Assembly: GCA_027490255.1 (NCBI GenBank)
Contig: JAIXYM010000080.1
Coordinates: forward strand, 1 to 64,000
Reading direction: 5' to 3'
From: Oxalobacteraceae bacterium
Lineage (GTDB): Bacteria; Pseudomonadota; Gammaproteobacteria; Burkholderiales; Burkholderiaceae_D
DNA: 64,000 nucleotides
In this document: piece by piece, positions 40,896-54,253 of the stretch
Layout of the letters: every line of letters starts with the position of its first letter
How positions within the stretch are numbered: position 1 is the stretch's first letter
Program-made: the position numbers and the translations under genes
Notes under the pieces: model-generated
What the model was told of the DNA's origin: nothing
Databases searched by the model: none
The model's input: only the letters and a program-made list of their open reading frames with translations

Positions 40896-41915
40896 ATGCG
40901 GGCTTTCGAATTAAGTTTGCTCCGCGTGAAAGATAAAAATCACTTACCCGCTCGACGTCTATCGGTCGCACCGATGATGGACTGGACCGATCGCCATTGC
41001 CGCATGTTCCATCGGCAGATTACGCGTCACACTTGGCTCTATACAGAGATGGTCACGACCGGGGCGATCATTCACGGTGATAGGGCACGTCATCTTGATT
41101 TCAGTGATGAGGAACACCCGGTGGCGCTGCAGCTGGGCGGCAGCGAGCCTGATGATCTTGCCCAGTGCGCGAAACTCGGAGAGCAATGGGGGTATGACGA
41201 GATCAACCTCAATTGCGGCTGTCCCTCGGAGCGCGTCCAGCGCGGTGCGTTCGGCGCCTGCTTGATGGCCGAGCCTGCGCTGGTAGCTGATTGTGTGAAG
41301 GCCATGCGCGACGCTGTAGGTATTGACGTCACTGTCAAGCATCGTATCGGCATCAATGATGTAGACAGTTATGGTTTCGTACGCGACTTCGTTGGTCATG
41401 TGGCTGATGCAGGATGCAAAACTTTTATCGTGCATGCACGTAATGCGATTCTTAGCGGATTGTCACCCAAAGAAAATCGCGAAATTCCACCGCTGCGTTA
41501 TGACTATGCCTACCAGCTGAAAAAAGATTTTCCGCAACTGGAAATCATCATCAATGGCGGAATCCGAACGCTAGCTGAGATTGATAGTCATCTGGCTCGG
41601 GTGGATGGTGTAATGCTCGGTCGTGAGGCTTATCACAACCCCTACCTCATGGCCGATTTTGATTCACGTTATTACGGTGAATCCGGGCACGCGCGCACGC
41701 GTGTGCAGATAATCAATGCGATGCTGCCGTATATTCGTGCTCAGCTTGCCTTGGGTGGGCCGAGGCTCAACAGTATCACCCGCCATATGCTGGGATTGAT
41801 GACCGGTTTGCCCGGTGCGCGCCGTTTTCGTCAAAATCTGTCTGACGCAAAGCAGCTGGCGAGCGGCGATGCAGATGTATTGCTGCGTGCAGCGGAAGCG
41901 GTCAGTATGCCTTGA
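40896..41915 (+). CDS. dusA: tRNA-dihydrouridine(20/20a) synthase
   Basis: A 339-aa DusA. The FMN barrel begins LSVAPMMDWTDRHCRMFHR; catalytic Cys lies in NLNCGCPSERVQRGAFGACLM (shown in halves here), followed by TVKHRIGIND, FIVHARNA and NGGIRTL. It reduces uridine 20/20a in the tRNA D-loop using NADPH. The exact start is not fixed: ATG 40896 gives a short extra leader, and GTG 40928 is possible. The 3' end overlaps the convergent activator gene by 14 bp. Confidence 0.95.
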   Translation: MRAFELSLLRVKDKNHLPARRLSVAPMMDWTDRHCRMFHRQITRHTWLYTEMVTTGAIIHGDRARHLDFSDEEHPVALQLGGSEPDDLAQCAKLGEQWGYDEINLNCGCPSERVQRGAFGACLMAEPALVADCVKAMRDAVGIDVTVKHRIGINDVDSYGFVRDFVGHVADAGCKTFIVHARNAILSGLSPKENREIPPLRYDYAYQLKKDFPQLEIIINGGIRTLAEIDSHLARVDGVMLGREAYHNPYLMADFDSRYYGESGHARTRVQIINAMLPYIRAQLALGGPRLNSITRHMLGLMTGLPGARRFRQNLSDAKQLASGDADVLLRAAEAVSMP

Positions 41916-42849
41916 GGCGGTTGTACAGAGTTTTAAGGCTAATGCCCAAAGTTTCGGCCGTCAGACGCTTGTTGCCCCGGTAATGATGCAGTGTCGCTAG
42001 AATGATTTCTTTCTGTACATCGGCTAATGCGGTACCGATCGTGAAATCAAGAATGCCATCAATCACCCGCGCTATTTTTTTACCAGCCACGGTTGGAATT
42101 TCCAATGTCAGTACGTCCGCAGAGAGAATAAAAGCGCGATGCACCAGATTTTTCAATTCGCGCACATTGCCTGGCCAGCGATGGCTGTGTAGTTGCTTCA
42201 GAGCCGATCTTGAAAATCGCTTACTAGTAGCAGCGTCCCGATTCAGTTCTTCTAAAAAATGATTTGCCAGTAATTCCGTATCATTGCCACGCTCACGCAA
42301 TGGAGGAACACGGATGGGAAATACCGCTAACCGGTACATCAAATCCTGCCGCAGGCTACCTGTCTGTACAGCATCTTTTAGTGAGCGATTAGTCGCTGCA
42401 ATCAATCGAACATTCACCTGAACGGCATCGCTGCCGCCGACACGATAAAAATTGCCGCACTCCAGAACGCGGAGTATTTTGACTTGCAGATCAGGCGGCA
42501 TTTCGGTGATCTCATCAAGAAAGAGCGTGCCGCCTGATGCGTGCTCAAAGTAACCTGCCTGCATTCTCAAAGCCCCAGTGAAGCTGCCTTTCTCGTGCCC
42601 AAACAAAGCCGCTTCAATCAAGTGATCCGGAATCGCGCCACAGTTGACTGCAACAAATTGCTTGTCGGTGCGCTGACCTGAAAAATGGATGGCCTGGGCA
42701 ATAAGCTCTTTGCCCGTGCCGCTCTCTCCCTCGAGAAATACCGTTGCCTCCGTTGCCGAGACTCGTTCAATCTGGCGATACAAAGACAGCATCGCTTGTG
42801 AGCTACCGTAGAGTGGGCCGAGGTGCATCGCAGAGCTTGATTGCGCCAT
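41902..42849 (-). CDS. Sigma-54 activator lacking a sensory domain
   Basis: A 315-aa AAA+ enhancer-binding protein. Only about 12 residues precede the ATPase domain. Walker A is GESGTGKE, the sigma-54 contact loop is GSFTGA (Ser for the usual Ala), Walker B is GGTLFLDEI and the Arg fingers region follows. The C-terminus is a Fis-type helix-turn-helix ([20 protein letters not shown]) that ends the protein. With no receiver or PAS domain, it resembles PspF-style activators held by a separate partner. It is a close paralogue of the protein at 43516 and divergent from it. Confidence 0.93.
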   Translation of the reverse strand: MAQSSSAMHLGPLYGSSQAMLSLYRQIERVSATEATVFLEGESGTGKELIAQAIHFSGQRTDKQFVAVNCGAIPDHLIEAALFGHEKGSFTGALRMQAGYFEHASGGTLFLDEITEMPPDLQVKILRVLECGNFYRVGGSDAVQVNVRLIAATNRSLKDAVQTGSLRQDLMYRLAVFPIRVPPLRERGNDTELLANHFLEELNRDAATSKRFSRSALKQLHSHRWPGNVRELKNLVHRAFILSADVLTLEIPTVAGKKIARVIDGILDFTIGTALADVQKEIILATLHHYRGNKRLTAETLGISLKTLYNRLKAY

Positions 42850-43079
42850 TGCAGACCATAAAAGTTAAAAGCTATCAATCTGCACGAGCGCACACAAAAA
42901 ACACTGTCTGATATCAAACGAAGGATGTCAGTGGTGCCTTTACTTTTATTGAGCTGTCTTGATCTATATCGATCTGCTATGCCGCTGCGCAGAAGACTGC
43001 CCTGAGTGTTGAAACTTATGCACGATGGCCAAGTCAAGAAGATAGGTAACGACTTTACCGTGAGTTGAAAGGAATAGGA

Positions 43080-43478
43080 ATGAATCTGAAATTGCATAGT
43101 TCAAAATTACTTGTCTTGTCGGGCTTGATGGCTATCAGTCTTGCTGCCTGCAATCGCGGCGGTGGCAGTGGTGGCACGGAGCAAGCAGGTCCCGGTACCA
43201 CAGCGCCACCAGCACAGTCGGCGCCAGAGGCAACGCCATCGACACCATCAACGCCACCACCAGCGGACAAGGACACCAAACCCGGCACGACGACAACACC
43301 ACCTTCAGGCGGTAGTTCTGGTAGCAGTTCAAGCGGTACATCAGCCGCACCTAGCGGTATGCCAGGCAGTGGCTTGGGTGAAAGAGGTTCATTTGGTGGT
43401 CTGGGCTCTGCCTCTGGCACGTCGGGCGGTACCTCATCGGACAGTATGGGTGGCAGCTCCAGGGGTGGGTCGCGTTGA
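43080..43478 (+). CDS. Small Gly/Ser/Pro/Thr-rich lipoprotein
   Basis: A 132-aa protein with a lipoprotein signal: hydrophobic LLVLSGLMAIS then lipobox LAAC with Cys24. The mature part is low complexity: GGGSGG, a Pro/Thr/Ser section, then Ser/Gly-rich repeats to the end (GGSSRGGSR). No domain. It has AGGAATAGGA before ATG 43080 and lies between two divergent sigma-54 activator genes. It could be a surface linker protein or the envelope partner of the activators; both are inference. Confidence 0.75.
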   Translation: MNLKLHSSKLLVLSGLMAISLAACNRGGGSGGTEQAGPGTTAPPAQSAPEATPSTPSTPPPADKDTKPGTTTTPPSGGSSGSSSSGTSAAPSGMPGSGLGERGSFGGLGSASGTSGGTSSDSMGGSSRGGSR

Positions 43479-43515: not shown

Positions 43516-44955
43516 ATGCCGCACGTGTTGATTGTTGATGAGGACCTCGTTTCCAGCAATTTTTTGCGGGAGGTGGCGCGCGAAGAAGGTCTGAGTAGTG
43601 TCGTAGTGACGAGTCTCAGACTGGCCTCGATACAAATCACATTACAGCGACCTGACATCATTTTTACGGCTCAGCATCTTGGCGATGGCTCTGGTCTCGG
43701 CCTACTCGATTGCAGCGGGGAATCTAGCAGGATGAGGGTGATTTTGATGATGGCTGATCCCAATGTAGATGCTGTCATTAATGCTTGGCGTCTAGGCGCG
43801 ATGGACTATCTGACCAAGCCGCTGGATCTGCATCGTGTCCGACGATGGCTGCGTGAATTGCCGGTCGCCGCAAAGGACGCTAGCCGACAAGTGGGTTTCA
43901 CACGATTGATGGGGGACTCAGCCGCGATGCAAACACTGTCTGAGCACATCGGCCGTGTGGCACCTACCGAGGCGACTGTATTTTTGCTCGGAGAGAGTGG
44001 TACTGGTAAAGAGTTGGTTGCGCAAAAAATTCATGCGCAAAGCCCTCGTCATCATCAGCCTTTCCTTCCCATCAATTGCGGTGCGATTTCACCGCAACTC
44101 ATCGAAAGTGAAATTTTTGGTCATGAGAAGGGCAGCTTTACTGGCGCTGATCGTCAGCATAAAGGTTACTTTGAGCGGGCTTGTGGCGGTACGCTGTTTC
44201 TCGATGAAGTTGTCGAAATGCCGGTGAACTTGCAGGTCAAGCTGCTACGCGTTCTGGAGACCGGTACATTCATGCGCATTGGTAGCCATCAGACGCTGAG
44301 CGCCGACGTACGAATCATCGCCGCAACGAACCGTGATCCTGAGAGTGCTATCGCCGAAGGTCGGCTCAGACTGGACCTATTTCATCGGCTGAATGTTTTT
44401 CCTCTCCGAATTCCTCCTTTGCGTGATCGCGAGTACGATATTGAATTACTGGCGCGTCATTTTCTTTCTGAACTTAATTCGATTCATGGCACTGCCAAGA
44501 CGTTACCTGAATCTGCTATCGGTGTTCTTCGCTCACACTATTGGCCGGGTAATGTACGCGAGCTACGTAACTTCGTTCATCGCACCTATATTCTTTCGGA
44601 TCAGGTAATCGATGTTCAGATGCTCGAGCCTTTACCCGCCTCTTGCCACGCGAGCGAGCTCACCATGTCCATACCTGTTGGTACATCGTTAGCCGATGTT
44701 GATCGTAAGCTGATTTTTGCAACGATGGCGCTGTGTGGTGGTGTAAAAAAACGTGCGGCTGATTTGCTGGGAATCAGCCTCAAGACGCTATACAACCGTC
44801 TTGAAGAGTATGGTCGTCATGAAAGAAAATCTGACGATCCTGCATACATATCTACAGAGAATCTTCACACTACCGTCGCCGGATTTCGACCCTTGCCTTC
44901 TCAATTAACTGGTGATCATGGATCACGAGCCCTTTACGGACTCGGGCATGTTTGA
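43516..44955 (+). CDS. NtrC-type sigma-54 activator with a degenerate receiver domain
   Basis: A 479-aa protein: receiver-like domain (residues 1-115), AAA+ domain (about 130-365) and Fis-type HTH (near 405-435), then a 40-residue tail. The receiver keeps the acidic pair (Asp8, Glu9) and Lys101, but the phospho-acceptor position is Ala52 (codon GCT at 43669) and the switch Thr is Met79, so normal phosphorylation is not expected. The ATPase has [14 protein letters not shown] and a GGTLFLDE Walker B. No histidine kinase gene is adjacent. The gene follows the small lipoprotein by 37 bp. Confidence 0.93.
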
Positions 44956-46414: not shown

Positions 46415-46744
46415 ATGCGATCTCAGATTACATGGCGAAGATCGATCACGCTACCAATGACCTTGTTGATCGCAGCGCTCTTGTCAGGTTTCGGTATGCC
46501 TACTGCGCGAATGCCTGTCGTCAGCAAAGCAATGAAAAGCGCCTTACACCAAGCTGTTTTTCGTTTCGACACCCGAATTGTATTTTCCTGCGAAGAATTT
46601 GTACGCGAAACGGTAGGTCGGCCCTTGGTGAATATCAATATTGAATTTCAATGGGAACGCATAAAGACTGATTCGCACGTAAGTCGCTCCTTAGTTTATG
46701 CGTCCCCTGAATGTCTAGTGCAGGCGGGACTGATGGTGCTTTGA
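46415..46744 (+). CDS. Possible small secreted protein
   Basis: A 109-aa reading frame with a signal-like N-terminus (RRSITLPMTLLIAALLSGFG) and two Cys in the mature part. No domain is recognised. The start is uncertain (ATG 46415 or 46460) and the SD is weak (TAGGGTG). It runs into the 3' end of the entericidin-like gene on the other strand without overlap. Confidence 0.4.
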   Translation: MRSQITWRRSITLPMTLLIAALLSGFGMPTARMPVVSKAMKSALHQAVFRFDTRIVFSCEEFVRETVGRPLVNINIEFQWERIKTDSHVSRSLVYASPECLVQAGLMVL

Positions 46745-46752
46745 AGTCGCCC

Positions 46753-46923
46753 TTACTTTCCTTGTTGTGGTGTTGACTCCGGCTTGGGCTTGGCCGCGTC
46801 CTGCACGCGCTCTCCGCCGCGTTCGACGTCTTTCCCGAATCCTCGCATTGTGTTGCAGCCAGAAATACTCAAGCCACTAATGATTGAAGCAGTCAGGCTT
46901 AACAATGTGATGAACTTACGCAT
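46753..46923 (-). CDS. Entericidin-like small lipoprotein
   Basis: A 56-aa protein. Signal and lipobox: FITLLSLTASIISGLSISGC with Cys23; then the entericidin pattern NTMRGFGKDVERGGERVQDAA and a Pro/Gln tail. Entericidin A/B are tiny lipoproteins tied to stationary-phase stress in enteric bacteria. GGAAGGAA upstream supports ATG 46923. It overlaps the end of the YqjK-like gene by 8 bp and is the last gene of a four-gene operon. Confidence 0.9.
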   Translation of the reverse strand: MRKFITLLSLTASIISGLSISGCNTMRGFGKDVERGGERVQDAAKPKPESTPQQGK

Positions 46924-47374
46924 AAGGTTTCCTTCCGTGGGGGTGAGTTTGATTGGTTGTCGGACGGCGCATCCAACGCCATGCATTGCCGACCATACTG
47001 GCGGTCGTTTGCATTTGCCGTGGATCCCTGAGTAAAAGCATCATCGTGCCTGCGATAGATTTCAGGATGCCAGTGTGTTTGCCTGTTGTAGTCGCCCGCG
47101 TGACGGCCTTGGAGCGATGTTGGCTGCGTCGGATCAAGCGTGGCCCCAGCCATACCAGCAGCGTAACGCCTGCGGCCACCTGCAAGGGGTGATCCAGCAA
47201 CCACTTCCCGAATTGATTGTGATGCGGCGGCCTAGCTAGACCGATGGCTTGTCTGTCGGTACTTGCTTTTTGCTGCTCCTTGCCCTCGCTGCTTAGCATT
47301 CGACGATAAAGGCTGCGTCTTGCTTCGATCTCTTCCAGCAGTGCACGACGTTCTTCCTCAAGCGATATTTTCAT
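46916..47374 (-). CDS. YqjK-like protein
   Basis: A 152-aa protein. The N-terminus is a charged helix (SLEEERRALLEEIEARRSLYRRML) matching YqjK-type proteins, followed by a polar linker and one hydrophobic segment (LQVAAGVTLLVWLGPRLI near residue 68). A basic tail follows. Position between yqjE-like and entericidin-like genes, with 4- and 8-bp overlaps, fits the conserved yqjD-yqjE-yqjK order. Function unknown. Confidence 0.8.
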   Translation of the reverse strand: MKISLEEERRALLEEIEARRSLYRRMLSSEGKEQQKASTDRQAIGLARPPHHNQFGKWLLDHPLQVAAGVTLLVWLGPRLIRRSQHRSKAVTRATTTGKHTGILKSIAGTMMLLLRDPRQMQTTASMVGNAWRWMRRPTTNQTHPHGRKPYA

Positions 47375-47739
47375 AAGCTTTCCCTGACTAATGCCACGTC
47401 ACGTTTGATTTCATCCCGCAAGGTCATCATGCCCGTCCCGCGGCCAGCATGCTGTCGGGCCAGTGAGATACCTGCGCCTGCAGTGGCTGCGTAGAGACCC
47501 ACCACCAGCCATGCTGCTGTATTGCGGTAGTCGCTATCCCAAAAAGTCACAATGATTGCAATACCAGAAAAGAGCAGCATGAAAAAAACAGACATCGATG
47601 CCAGTACGTAACCTGCCAGTTGCGCACCAAACTCCCGCCCCTGAAGTTTCATTTCAATCTGCAGAAGCGCAAGGTAGTCACCTAATCTGTCCATAGCAAT
47701 GACAGAGAGTTGTTTTGATTTTTGTAGTGCTTTCAGCAT
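47371..47739 (-). CDS. YqjE-like phage-holin-family membrane protein
   Basis: A 122-aa protein with two membrane helices (about 48-70 and 77-97) and a helical amphipathic N-terminus (YLALLQIEMKLQGREFGAQL), as in YqjE/holin III superfamily proteins. ATG 47739 is chosen for the GGAGAAGC just upstream. It follows the YqjD-like gene by 44 bp and overlaps the YqjK-like gene by 4 bp. Confidence 0.88.
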   Translation of the reverse strand: MLKALQKSKQLSVIAMDRLGDYLALLQIEMKLQGREFGAQLAGYVLASMSVFFMLLFSGIAIIVTFWDSDYRNTAAWLVVGLYAATAGAGISLARQHAGRGTGMMTLRDEIKRDVALVRESL

Positions 47740-47783
47740 TAGCTTCTCCAAGCTCTGGTTGAGTGTCCTGAGCAATCTGGCTG

Positions 47784-48140
47784 TTAATCACGGCGAAGGA
47801 AGACGCCGATCAGCATTCCCATGCCTGCCGCCACTAACACGGATTGCAAGGGACGTTCCCGAACATAGCCCGCCGTCACGTCGCGTCCCAGACTCAATTG
47901 CCGGGTGGCTTGCTCTGCGATGCTCTTGGCAGCATGTCGCATTGAAGAAAAACTTGTCATGATGCGATCACGGGCTTCGCGTAATTCGCTCTCGCTTAGC
48001 GTTGAAGCGTGCAACATCAAAGCATCAAGATCATTTTTTAGATTGGATAACTCTTCCCGTAGACCTGAAGCCTGACAGGTGCGGATATCTGGACGCCTAC
48101 CTGAAGTGTCAGTTGATCTGTTCGGGATTTCGGTTTCCAT
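47784..48140 (-). CDS. ElaB/YqjD-family membrane-anchored protein
   Basis: A 118-aa DUF883 protein. The helical region LREELSNLKNDLDALML is followed by a C-terminal anchor in the canonical form VRERPLQSVLVAAGMGMLIGVFLRR. In E. coli, YqjD and ElaB bind ribosomes and dock them at the inner membrane in stationary phase under RpoS control. Here the gene heads a sigma-54-type operon: GGAGAG precedes ATG 48140, and a consensus sigma-54 promoter lies about 80 bp upstream. Confidence 0.92.
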   Translation of the reverse strand: METEIPNRSTDTSGRRPDIRTCQASGLREELSNLKNDLDALMLHASTLSESELREARDRIMTSFSSMRHAAKSIAEQATRQLSLGRDVTAGYVRERPLQSVLVAAGMGMLIGVFLRRD

Positions 48141-48534
48141 GAATCTCTCCATTCAGTTAGGGTGCGCTGGCATGCCAGTTGATGTATCGGCCGACCGAAG
48201 TCAGTCAAAAGATAACTTTGCAAGCTACGTGCCAGAACCGAGGTCTGCTCAGACTGCGCTGTTACGCGACGCCGTTTCTAGGTCATGGAAAAATTTACGT
48301 GTAAGCGATGGATAAATCGGTATGGATAGCCAAGCTCGATATCCGGATATGGACCGGACCGGCACGTTCCCGGGTTGCAGACCTAGGGCGGGTACTGCCG
48401 ATCGTTTCTTTGACGTAGTCGTCAGCCAGGCGGCGCGCTACCAATGAGGCTCATGCTAAGATTGCTGCCGCTAAAGCGGCGTCATAACCCGCTACCGTTT
48501 TCATGTTGAAATCAATAACTATAAGGAGATGATT
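48141..48534. other. Control region between the yqjD-like operon and the binding-protein gene
   Basis: No gene. It holds the sigma-54 promoter at 48219-48234, a 12-bp perfect palindrome ATATCCGGATAT at 48339-48350 (about 135 bp upstream of the sigma-54 start, a normal enhancer distance) and a small hairpin GCCGC-TAAA-GCGGC at 48467-48480. No sigma-70 promoter for the rightward gene stands out. Confidence 0.65.
48219..48234 (-). promoter_or_regulatory. Sigma-54 promoter of the yqjD-like operon
   Basis: On the minus strand the site reads TGGCACG-TAGC-TTGCA, with GG and GC exactly ten bases apart. It matches the -24/-12 consensus at all conserved positions. Predicted start near 48209, leaving about 70 nt before the ATG at 48140. 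Confidence 0.88.
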
Positions 48535-49770
48535 TTGAAACTCAGGAATCCTACCCGTGCACTCGTCGCCGTATCGGCACTGGCTTCGGTGTTTACGCTG
48601 ACCTCATGCCAGAAGGCTGACAACGCCAGCAGCAGCAACGATGGTGATACCGTAAAGATTGGTTTTATCACCGATATGTCCGGTGTTTATGCTGACGTCG
48701 ATGGTCCGGCAGGTGCAGAAGCCATCAAGATGGCGATAGCGGATTTTGGTGACAAGGTCAACGGCAAGAAAATTGAATTCGTTTCGGCAGACCATCAAAA
48801 CAAAGCAGACATCGCAGCCAGCAAGGCGCGCGAGTGGTTCGACCAGCAAGGTGTGGATCTGCTGATTGGTGGTACCAACTCTGCAACCAGCCTGGCCATG
48901 GCCAAGGTAGCTGCGGAAAAGAAAAAGCCTTTCATTGCTATCGGTGCCGGTACATCGCGCCTGACAAATGAAGAATGCACCCCTTACACCATCCACTATG
49001 CGTATGACACCGCGGCCGTGGCACGCGGTACTTCTGGTGCGCTGGTTCAGCAAGGTCAGAAGGATTGGTTCTTCCTGACGGCAGATTATGTGTTTGGCAT
49101 GTCACTGGAAAAAGATGCGTCGGACGTCGTGACTAAAAGTGGTGGTCGGGTAATGGGTTCGGTGCGCCATCCGCTCGCGGCATCAGACTTCTCATCATTT
49201 TTGCTTCAGGCTGAAAAATCCAAAGCACAGGTGCTGGGACTGGCTAATGCAGGTGGTGATACGGTCAATTCGATCAAGGCCGCTGCGGAATTCGGTATCA
49301 ATAAAAAAATGAAGCTCGCCGGTTTGCTGATGTTCGTCAATGATGTGCATGCGCTGGGACTGGATCTCACGCAGGGCATGTATCTGACCGATGGATGGTA
49401 TTGGGATACCAACGAAGAAACCCGTGCCTGGTCGAAGAAGTTCATGGATAAAAACAAAAAAGCGCCTTCCATGCTGCATGCGGCCGATTACTCAGCAACG
49501 ACGTTCTACCTGAATGCGGTCAAGGCGCTCGGCAATGAAGATGGCGACAAGGTGATGGAAAAATTGAAGTCAACTCCGATCAATGATTTCTTTACCAAGA
49601 ACGGTATCGTGCGTCCCGATGGTCGCATGGTGCATGACATGACACTCATGCAGGTGAAATCACCCGCTGAATCCAAGTATGCGTGGGATTATTACAAGCC
49701 AGTTCAAGTGATTCCGGGCGAGAAGGCGTTCATGACCAAAGAAGAGACCAAGTGCGCGCTTTGGAAATAA
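48535..49770 (+). CDS. ABC-type branched-chain amino acid/amide substrate-binding lipoprotein
   Basis: A 411-aa type 1 periplasmic binding protein of the Leu/amide family (VKIGFITDMSGVYADVDGP, GTNSATSLAMA, DYVFGMSLEKDA, LNAVKALG). The signal ends in lipobox LTSC with Cys25. Start is set at TTG 48535 because AAGGAG (48523-48528) lies six bases before it; the ATG at 48529 abuts the SD and is unlikely. No permease or ATPase genes are adjacent, so it is an orphan. A strong terminator follows. Confidence 0.93.
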   Translation: MKLRNPTRALVAVSALASVFTLTSCQKADNASSSNDGDTVKIGFITDMSGVYADVDGPAGAEAIKMAIADFGDKVNGKKIEFVSADHQNKADIAASKAREWFDQQGVDLLIGGTNSATSLAMAKVAAEKKKPFIAIGAGTSRLTNEECTPYTIHYAYDTAAVARGTSGALVQQGQKDWFFLTADYVFGMSLEKDASDVVTKSGGRVMGSVRHPLAASDFSSFLLQAEKSKAQVLGLANAGGDTVNSIKAAAEFGINKKMKLAGLLMFVNDVHALGLDLTQGMYLTDGWYWDTNEETRAWSKKFMDKNKKAPSMLHAADYSATTFYLNAVKALGNEDGDKVMEKLKSTPINDFFTKNGIVRPDGRMVHDMTLMQVKSPAESKYAWDYYKPVQVIPGEKAFMTKEETKCALWK

Positions 49771-53197: not shown

Positions 53198-54253
53198 TCA
53201 CGAGAACAGCTGTCTCAGTTTGTACATGTCCGGCTGATGTATCACGCCCTTCTCGGTAATAAGTGCCGTCACCAGCTCGGCGGGCGTTACGTCAAACGAA
53301 GGATTTCTGACCATCACACCAGCGGCTGCCCACTGACAATCACGGTAGCCTGTCACTTCCAGCGGCGAGCGCTCTTCAATCGGAATATCTTCGCCACGAG
53401 CGATCTTCATGTCGATGGTCGACAGCGGGCAGGCGACATAAAACGGAATGCCGTGTCGGTGTGCCAGCACTGCCACCATGTAGGTACCTATCTTGTTGGC
53501 GACATCGCCATTGGCTGCAACGCGATCAGTTCCGACGATCACTGCGTCGACTTCACCGCGAGCCATCATGTGACCGGCCATGTTGTCGGTGATGAGTGTG
53601 ACGGGAATTTTTTCCTGCACCATTTCCCATGCTGTCAGACGCGCTCCCTGCAGGAAGGGACGGGTTTCATCGGCGATGACAGAAATGCGTTTGCCCGAAG
53701 CGACCGCGGAGCGAATCACGCCCAGTGCGGTACCGTGCCCGGCAGTGGCTAGCGCACCCGCGTTGCAATGGGTCAGGACACGCGCACCATCGGACAAGAG
53801 TGCTGCGCCAGCGGCGCCCATGGCGAGATTGATATCCACATCTTCGCTATGGATGGCTTTCGCCTCTTTGAGTAATTCATCGGACAAAGTTACTGCATCG
53901 GCCGTGCCATGCTGTTGCCAGCACACGTGCATGCGATTCAGCGCCCAGAACAGATTGACCGCTGTAGGGCGACTCTCGGCCAGTACCTCAAAGCCCTGTT
54001 GCAGACGCTGATCAAATTCGGCACGCGGCAAATTACGTAGTTGCAAAGCTTCCAGCGCCACACCATAGGCGGCTGCCACACCGATGGCGGGCGCACCTCG
54101 CACCACCATGGTTCGAATACCTTCGGCGACACCCTGCGCACTGTCGTAAGACAGATACTCAAACACTGCGGGTAGACGGGTCTGGTCGATCATTTCCAGC
54201 CACTGCTTGCCAGATTCGTTCATCCAGCGCAGTGTGACCACGGCTTGCGTCAT
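53198..54253 (-). CDS. mtnA: Methylthioribose-1-phosphate isomerase
   Basis: A 351-aa MtnA (eIF2B-like fold). Motifs: RGAPAIGVAAAYG, LTHCNAGALATAG with the catalytic Cys, VIADETRPFLQGARLTAWE (in parts), the catalytic Asp in GTDRVAANGDVANKIGTY. It converts 5-methylthioribose-1-phosphate, and probably 5-deoxyribose-1-phosphate, to the ribulose form. ATG 54253 has AAGGGGA upstream and abuts the apt stop. Last gene of the mtnP-aldolase-apt-mtnA operon. Confidence 0.95.
   Translation of the reverse strand: MTQAVVTLRWMNESGKQWLEMIDQTRLPAVFEYLSYDSAQGVAEGIRTMVVRGAPAIGVAAAYGVALEALQLRNLPRAEFDQRLQQGFEVLAESRPTAVNLFWALNRMHVCWQQHGTADAVTLSDELLKEAKAIHSEDVDINLAMGAAGAALLSDGARVLTHCNAGALATAGHGTALGVIRSAVASGKRISVIADETRPFLQGARLTAWEMVQEKIPVTLITDNMAGHMMARGEVDAVIVGTDRVAANGDVANKIGTYMVAVLAHRHGIPFYVACPLSTIDMKIARGEDIPIEERSPLEVTGYRDCQWAAAGVMVRNPSFDVTPAELVTALITEKGVIHQPDMYKLRQLFS

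Follow-up and report, generated by a model that had tools for sequence, protein, structure and literature searches.

A conserved sigma-54-type promoter and a candidate activator site upstream of a DUF883 operon in the Oxalobacteraceae

In Escherichia coli, YqjD and ElaB are under RpoS control (PMC6389858), and in Pseudomonas aeruginosa, the homologues PA1323 and PA3040 belong to the sigma-22 regulon (PMC13159725). Among sigma-54 activators, CbrB of Pseudomonas is a response regulator that barely depends on phosphorylation (PMC6296734), and VnfA1 and VnfA3 of Azotobacter vinelandii are related proteins that act on, and co-activate, the same promoters (PMC9542535). The literature searched, which was largely open-access, yielded no description of a DUF883 gene under sigma-54 control.

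The locus described here is located in the window, i.e. the whole 64-kb stretch of Oxalobacteraceae DNA that was analysed, and consists of a four-gene operon on the minus strand, the intergenic region preceding it, and a divergently oriented gene. The features are as follows.

46753-46923, minus strand: entericidin-like small lipoprotein gene, last gene of the operon (PF08085, 35.2 bits, cut-off 23.3)
46916-47374, minus strand: operon gene 3, 152 aa, without Pfam or NCBIfam hit
47371-47739, minus strand: operon gene 2, PF07332 holin-superfamily protein (34 bits, cut-off 28.4)
47784-48140, minus strand: operon gene 1, DUF883 (YqjD/ElaB-like) protein (PF19029, 25.8 bits; PF05957, 18 bits)
48167-48178, no strand: another perfect 12-bp palindrome, CTGGCATGCCAG, within the DUF883 5' leader
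48219-48234, minus strand: predicted sigma-54 -24/-12 promoter element, TGGCACGTAGCTTGCA, with a predicted start near 48208
48287-48305, minus strand: proposed enhancer (upstream activator site, UAS), CTTACACGTAAATTTTTCC, a conserved block in the genus alignment
48304 to 48295, minus strand: core dyad of the candidate UAS, TTACACGTAA, with its centre some 91 bp before the predicted start
48339-48350, no strand: perfect palindrome, ATATCCGGATAT, judged to lie outside the switch
48529-49770, plus strand: periplasmic-binding-protein gene in divergent orientation, considered separate from the switch

A DUF883-like gene followed by a PF07332 gene is also the order in E. coli, and the window resembles the YqjD locus in this respect and in the hydrophobic C-terminus of the DUF883-like protein (judged by eye). 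The PF07332 gene is taken here to occupy the YqjE slot, and the 152-aa gene, from its place in the gene order, presumably the YqjK slot. Operon genes 3 and 4 each overlap the preceding gene, and the ATG of the DUF883 gene at 48140 is preceded by GGAGAG and lies 94 bp past the first base of the promoter site. With 18 bits for PF05957 (cut-off 25.4, E 0.003) and 25.8 bits for PF19029 (cut-off 27, E 8e-6), the DUF883 protein falls short of both Pfam thresholds and is regarded as a divergent relative of YqjD/ElaB. The term "YqjD-type" used in the earlier note is therefore a loose label. The low DUF883 scores, the added entericidin gene and the sigma-54-type promoter set the locus apart from that of E. 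coli YqjD.

The proposed promoter, TGGCACG-N4-TTGCA at 48234 to 48219 on the minus strand, contains the GG-N10-GC core of sigma-54 promoters. Nowhere else in the 64-kb window is TGGCACGNNNNTTGC matched exactly; with two mismatches permitted, the pattern occurred 31 times against 31.5 expected, which is chance level. When the genome to which the window belongs (3.09 Mb in 166 contigs) was scanned, 24 matches to TGGCACNNNNNTTGC were obtained against 3 for the backwards control, and 9 matches to TGGCAYRNNNNTTGCW against 1. Of the eight TGGCAYRNNNNTTGCW sites elsewhere, those with Pfam-named genes behind them precede FHIPEP (FlhA-family), flagellin, PEP_mutase-family and sigma-54 activator genes; the remaining ones precede a 129-aa gene and two unidentified ORFs, and one lies within a TonB-receptor gene. 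The PEP_mutase-family gene was read by us as prpB-like, and the 129-aa gene, which has no Pfam hit, as flgB. On the basis of these counts and of the genes behind the sites, matches of TGGCAYRNNNNTTGCW quality are often real in this genome. The genome encodes one sigma-54 (RpoN) as well as activators with a GAFTGA-type loop (GSFTGA in the EBP1 and EBP2 proteins introduced below). The distance from promoter to ATG, -91 to -94, is preserved in genomes G017, G018, G005 and G012 of the same genus. The minus-strand sigma-54 site claimed in the earlier note is thus exact, unique as an exact match in the window and conserved in relatives, and its interpretation as a conserved sigma-54-type promoter of the DUF883 operon is supported by the sequence comparisons.

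Sigma-54 sites were scored with weights that were set in advance and not fitted to data. Between 40001 and 54000 of the window, a score of at least 14 was reached solely by the DUF883 site and by a second sigma-54-like site on the minus strand at 53895-53909 (TGGCACGGCCGATGCA, score 16.3). As judged from alignments, no sigma-54 site stands in front of the neighbouring TM305, PRC and lipoprotein genes. The gap between the EBP2 and lipoprotein genes (42850-43080) carries blocks that are strongly conserved in five genomes; within the window, none of its sequence reaches a sigma-54 score of 14. Elsewhere in the same genome, on the flagellin contig (L123), a gene behind the sigma-54-like site TGGCACACGGATTGCT is itself a sigma-54 activator according to Pfam; an assignment of this gene as a pilus ATPase was rejected.

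The conserved block CTTACACGTAAATTTTTCC emerged when upstream regions from five genomes of the genus were aligned. Its distance to the promoter is exactly 71 bp in G000, G017, G018, G005 and G012 (with 4 mismatches in G012), whereas G011 has 60 bp and G016 has 73 bp; for the upstream region of G019, the best match to the block was no better than in shuffled sequences. Further copies with up to two mismatches were searched for in the window's own genome and none were found, and with three mismatches 32 sites were obtained against 17 for the backwards control. A strict pattern combining the UAS and the promoter occurred in 5 of 392 family genomes, always at the DUF883 operon and within the genus, and 0 times for the control.

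Close DUF883 homologues were detected in 62 of the 392 family genomes, representing 16 of 44 genera. At 46 further close DUF883 loci, a sigma-54 site of score at least 13 was present in 28 cases and of score at least 16 in 21. These loci belong to 45 genomes (G102 contributes two); the site of G160 (score 13.5) lies in seemingly coding DNA and was held to be spurious and counted as absent, which gives 26 genomes with and 19 without the promoter. Generic DUF883 genes served as background: 0 of 28 resolved loci reached a score of 14 and one scored 13.0, so that at the threshold of 13 applied to the 46 loci the background could be 1 in 28. Two of the 30 generic loci were unresolved, and about four of the 28 (L218, L226, L227 and L244) have doubtful starts. 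Thus, the same promoter wiring is, by sequence comparison, a recurrent feature of related genera; the cultured Noviherbaspirillum autotrophicum TSA66 is one of the relatives that share it.

An expectation-maximization (EM) motif search on 35 promoters yielded a 20-mer (consensus with flank, TTGCAAnaaTTACATGCAAnnnTGTaCAAAA) with a likelihood of 264.6, compared with 70-73 for three shuffled sets. According to our alignment, the motif is present in 30 of the 35 promoters and missing from five. With leave-one-out scoring, 29 of the 30 carriers were at or above the random 95% level, and the match of L251 fell at a different place. The eight other sigma-54-like sites of the window's genome had family-motif scores equal to background. 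Palindromic EM motifs, W12 and W16, performed better than shuffles in a different register and were set aside. When the model was built without the genus of the window, the sites of that genus scored -13.3 to 3.1, with a random 95% level of 4.0, and the best position was the expected one in five of its six genomes, that of the window being 9 bp off. Because these scores are low and the place is mostly the expected one, the block of the window and the family motif are considered only likely to be the same site.

Motif-to-promoter distances range from 70 to 146 bp and are grouped at one helix phase, as a looping activator needs. For 19 distinct spacings the resultant was 0.60 (P 0.0005, related genomes not being independent); five of the distances, from the genus of the window, were set manually using the TTTAC core and had been placed otherwise by EM. 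With the six genomes of that genus left out, 16 distinct EM-placed spacings gave a resultant of 0.56 (P 0.005, or 0.002 against drawn spacings), and the phasing signal peaked at periods of 10.5-11 bp. The family therefore has an upstream element that is both conserved and helically phased, as expected of a sigma-54 system; its link to the element in the genus of the window is weak when the scoring model comes from other genera only.

Two candidate activators are encoded 3-6 kb from the promoter.

41902-42849, minus strand: EBP2, receiver-less sigma-54 activator with AAA+ domain (GSFTGA) and Fis HTH
43516-44955, plus strand: EBP1, sigma-54 activator with receiver, AAA+ domain (GSFTGA) and Fis HTH; residue 52 is Ala

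EBP1 is above the Pfam cut-off for Response_reg (42.2 bits), Sigma54_activat (227.9 bits) and HTH_8 (48.3 bits) and has the receiver, AAA+ and Fis HTH arrangement of NtrC-type regulators without their phospho-acceptor Asp. In an alignment of 78 EBP1 proteins (73 of 80 named loci and 5 others), the acceptor position is D in 67, A in 6, S in 3 and E in 2; the window has A52, and the 11 proteins with Ala, Ser or Glu are mostly from its own genus. As the receiver is still recognised but lacks the Asp, the signal is probably taken in another way, and CbrB may be viewed as a functional parallel to such a protein. The CbrB subsites TGTTAC/GTAACA resemble the TTAC/GTAA half-sites of the window, whereas CbrB, which responds to carbon limitation, behaves as a monomer and its subsites are not palindromic (PMC6296734). 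An 11-residue HTH stretch is identical in EBP1 and EBP2, and the predicted pair, whose recognition helices are near-identical, may act together. The VnfA1/VnfA3 pair controls nitrogenases, whereas co-action of EBP1 and EBP2 would concern the present operon.

The gene order dusC-EBP2-EBP1 is common to six Noviherbaspirillum, one Herbaspirillum and one Herminiimonas loci, among others of the 80. Near EBP1 in other genera, sigma-54-like sites were also observed before CsbD, DUF3309, PRC-barrel and SDR genes (L070:11446-11567, L139:19085, L141:6947 and L136:6787); the names of these genes are our reading, except for PRC. No UAS was recognised by eye before the SDR, PRC and CsbD promoters of other genera.

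Presence of the promoter was compared with the form of EBP1 in 60 of the 62 genomes; G003 and G009 were left out of the classification on account of short upstream DNA (125 bp in G003), and L144 and L151, being the same sites as L257 (G089) and L256 (G070), were each counted once. Among genomes with full-length EBP1, the promoter was present in 32 and absent in 3 (G006, G013 and G060); among those without, it was present in 4 and absent in 21, of which 7 have a receiver-less EBP1 and 14 have no EBP1 at E 1e-115. Fisher's exact test gave P 2e-9 with related genomes counted without tree correction, and P 8e-9 when G012 and G248, whose EBP1 genes are cut by contig ends and were counted as full-length, were omitted. 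After grouping by genus and EBP1 form, the promoter was found in 10 of 11 versus 2 of 7 groups (P 0.013, also without tree correction). In one of the 32 genomes, G026, the sigma-54 site (L065:6795, minus strand) stands before a DUF1328-like small gene and the DUF883 gene is next. Of the exceptions, G006, G013 and G060 also have EBP2, G060 has a DUF883 protein of only 40% identity, and the four promoter carriers without EBP1 at E 1e-115 are G082, G108, G130 and G097. In G082, G108 and G097, a related protein without receiver falls on the EBP2 side in the tree; such a protein is also present in G058, G065, G209 and G239 (the last outside the tree), where the promoter site is absent.

Receiver-less EBP1 proteins form two separate tree branches: the first belongs to g54, where it neighbours the full-length EBP1 of L138, and the second lies within g1. 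In the stretches fetched from both branches, EBP2 was not found beside EBP1 (the contig of G010 ends there), and the DUF883 promoter was absent (only 125 bp of upstream DNA being available for G003). Judging from the tree, these absences are probably losses. The joint absence of receiver, EBP2 and promoter provides the strongest hint of a role for EBP1 and EBP2 at the DUF883 promoter. Loss of GAFTGA was considered as a general cause of promoter loss and rejected, GSFTGA being present in all eight receiver-less EBP1 proteins read. As a separate observation, two of three EBP2-side activators of g46 (L295 and L297) have GSFTGS instead of GSFTGA. No sigma-54 site of score 13 was found at DUF883 in the seven g46 genomes scanned.

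Taken as a whole, the comparisons establish the promoter element, the upstream block, the phased family motif, the co-occurrence with full-length EBP1 and the missing Asp. From these we infer, with a probability of roughly 70%, that the four-gene operon is read by sigma-54 polymerase and driven by an EBP1/EBP2-type activator at 48305-48287. Sigma-54 RNA polymerase would transcribe the operon from 48140 to 46753 using the element at 48234-48219, with a putative start near 48208. Bound about 91 bp upstream, at 48305-48287, and on a set helix face, an activator oligomer would contact the closed complex and open it with ATP; the EBP1 and EBP2 products are the most likely activators. In the lineage of the window, phosphorylation at the usual Asp could not switch EBP1, and the input would therefore probably come from EBP2, from expression level or from another partner. 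These predictions extend to the signal and to the operon's role for the cell.

It is possible, albeit improbable, that the promoter is real and the block is bound by another protein, such as a sigma-54 activator encoded elsewhere or an accessory factor like IHF, while EBP1 and EBP2 serve other genes. Six proteins of the genome match EBP1 with E values no higher than 1e-60, EBP1 and EBP2 included, so other activators exist. Moreover, sigma-54-like sites precede SDR, PRC-barrel, CsbD and DUF3309-like genes at EBP1-linked loci of Noviherbaspirillum, Herbaspirillum and G052, and G006 and G013 retain both EBP1 and EBP2 without a promoter at DUF883. Against this stand the occurrence of the promoter in 32 of 35 genomes with full-length EBP1 and the two branches in which receiver and promoter are jointly missing, both of which favour control of the DUF883 operon by EBP1 and EBP2.

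A fortuitous promoter match, with sigma-70 or sigma-S RNA polymerase transcribing the operon, is considered very unlikely. The RpoS dependence of E. coli YqjD and ElaB (PMC6389858) would fit such a case, as would the retention of the DUF883 gene without a sigma-54 site in G006, G013 and the receiver-less lineages. However, the site is conserved in the genus and at 28 of the 46 further family loci, and a scan of 46600-48640 for sigma-70-like sites returned none on the minus strand.

An enhancer role had been ascribed in the earlier note to the palindrome ATATCCGGATAT. The palindrome is exact at 48339-48350, is present as a single exact copy in the genome and lies at the distance described there, about 136 bp upstream of the predicted start, which is plausible for an enhancer. 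With two mismatches permitted, four matches were found in the window where 1.1 were expected, a count attained in 3 of 100 shuffles and thus somewhat above that of shuffled windows; genome-wide, there were seven further one-mismatch copies against 0 for the backwards control, a rough estimate from base counts being 6-7. Perfect 12-bp palindromes are nevertheless at chance frequency in the window (16, simulated mean 19.7, range 10-28), and ATATCCGGATAT is not conserved even in the closest relatives: it is broken in G017 (ATATCCAGATAT), whose DUF883 protein is 96% identical, reads ATACCCAGATAT in G005 and has 3 to 6 mismatches in the remaining 17 of 19 other upstream regions scanned. As conservation is absent, ATATCCGGATAT was rejected as an enhancer, a role it is most unlikely to have, and the block at 48305 to 48287 is the better candidate. 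Of the pair of sites that the earlier note proposed to look for in relatives, the promoter precedes DUF883 in other genera and the palindrome is not conserved. The second palindrome, CTGGCATGCCAG in the DUF883 leader, is exact in G017 and has one mismatch in G005.

It is equally implausible that the block serves the divergent gene at 48529-49770 in place of the DUF883 operon, since, although it lies inside the shared intergenic region, in G016, where both block and promoter are retained, no such gene was found next to DUF883, and G006 and G013 retain the gene without block and promoter.

On a wider scale, there may be an Oxalobacteraceae-wide sigma-54 regulon for small envelope and stress proteins, run by EBP1 and EBP2, with EBP1 uncoupled from phosphorylation in the lineage of the window. 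This reading is tentative, somewhat short of an even chance, and as a part of it the regulon would span the DUF883-holin-YqjK-slot-entericidin operon here and PRC-barrel, CsbD, DUF3309 and SDR genes elsewhere. Sigma-54 promoters are silent without an ATP-driven activator, and a sharp on/off switch would therefore be possible. The branches that lack the receiver, the partner activator and the promoter make it easy to compare relatives that have the wiring with relatives that do not, and the degenerate receiver of EBP1 turns its input into a testable question. As the earlier note anticipated, a sigma-54-type promoter is a different wiring from the RpoS control reported for E. coli (PMC6389858). 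If the regulon reading is true, sigma-54 would here control a gene family that is otherwise known to be under RpoS or sigma-22, and would do the work of sigma-S or ECF factors elsewhere.
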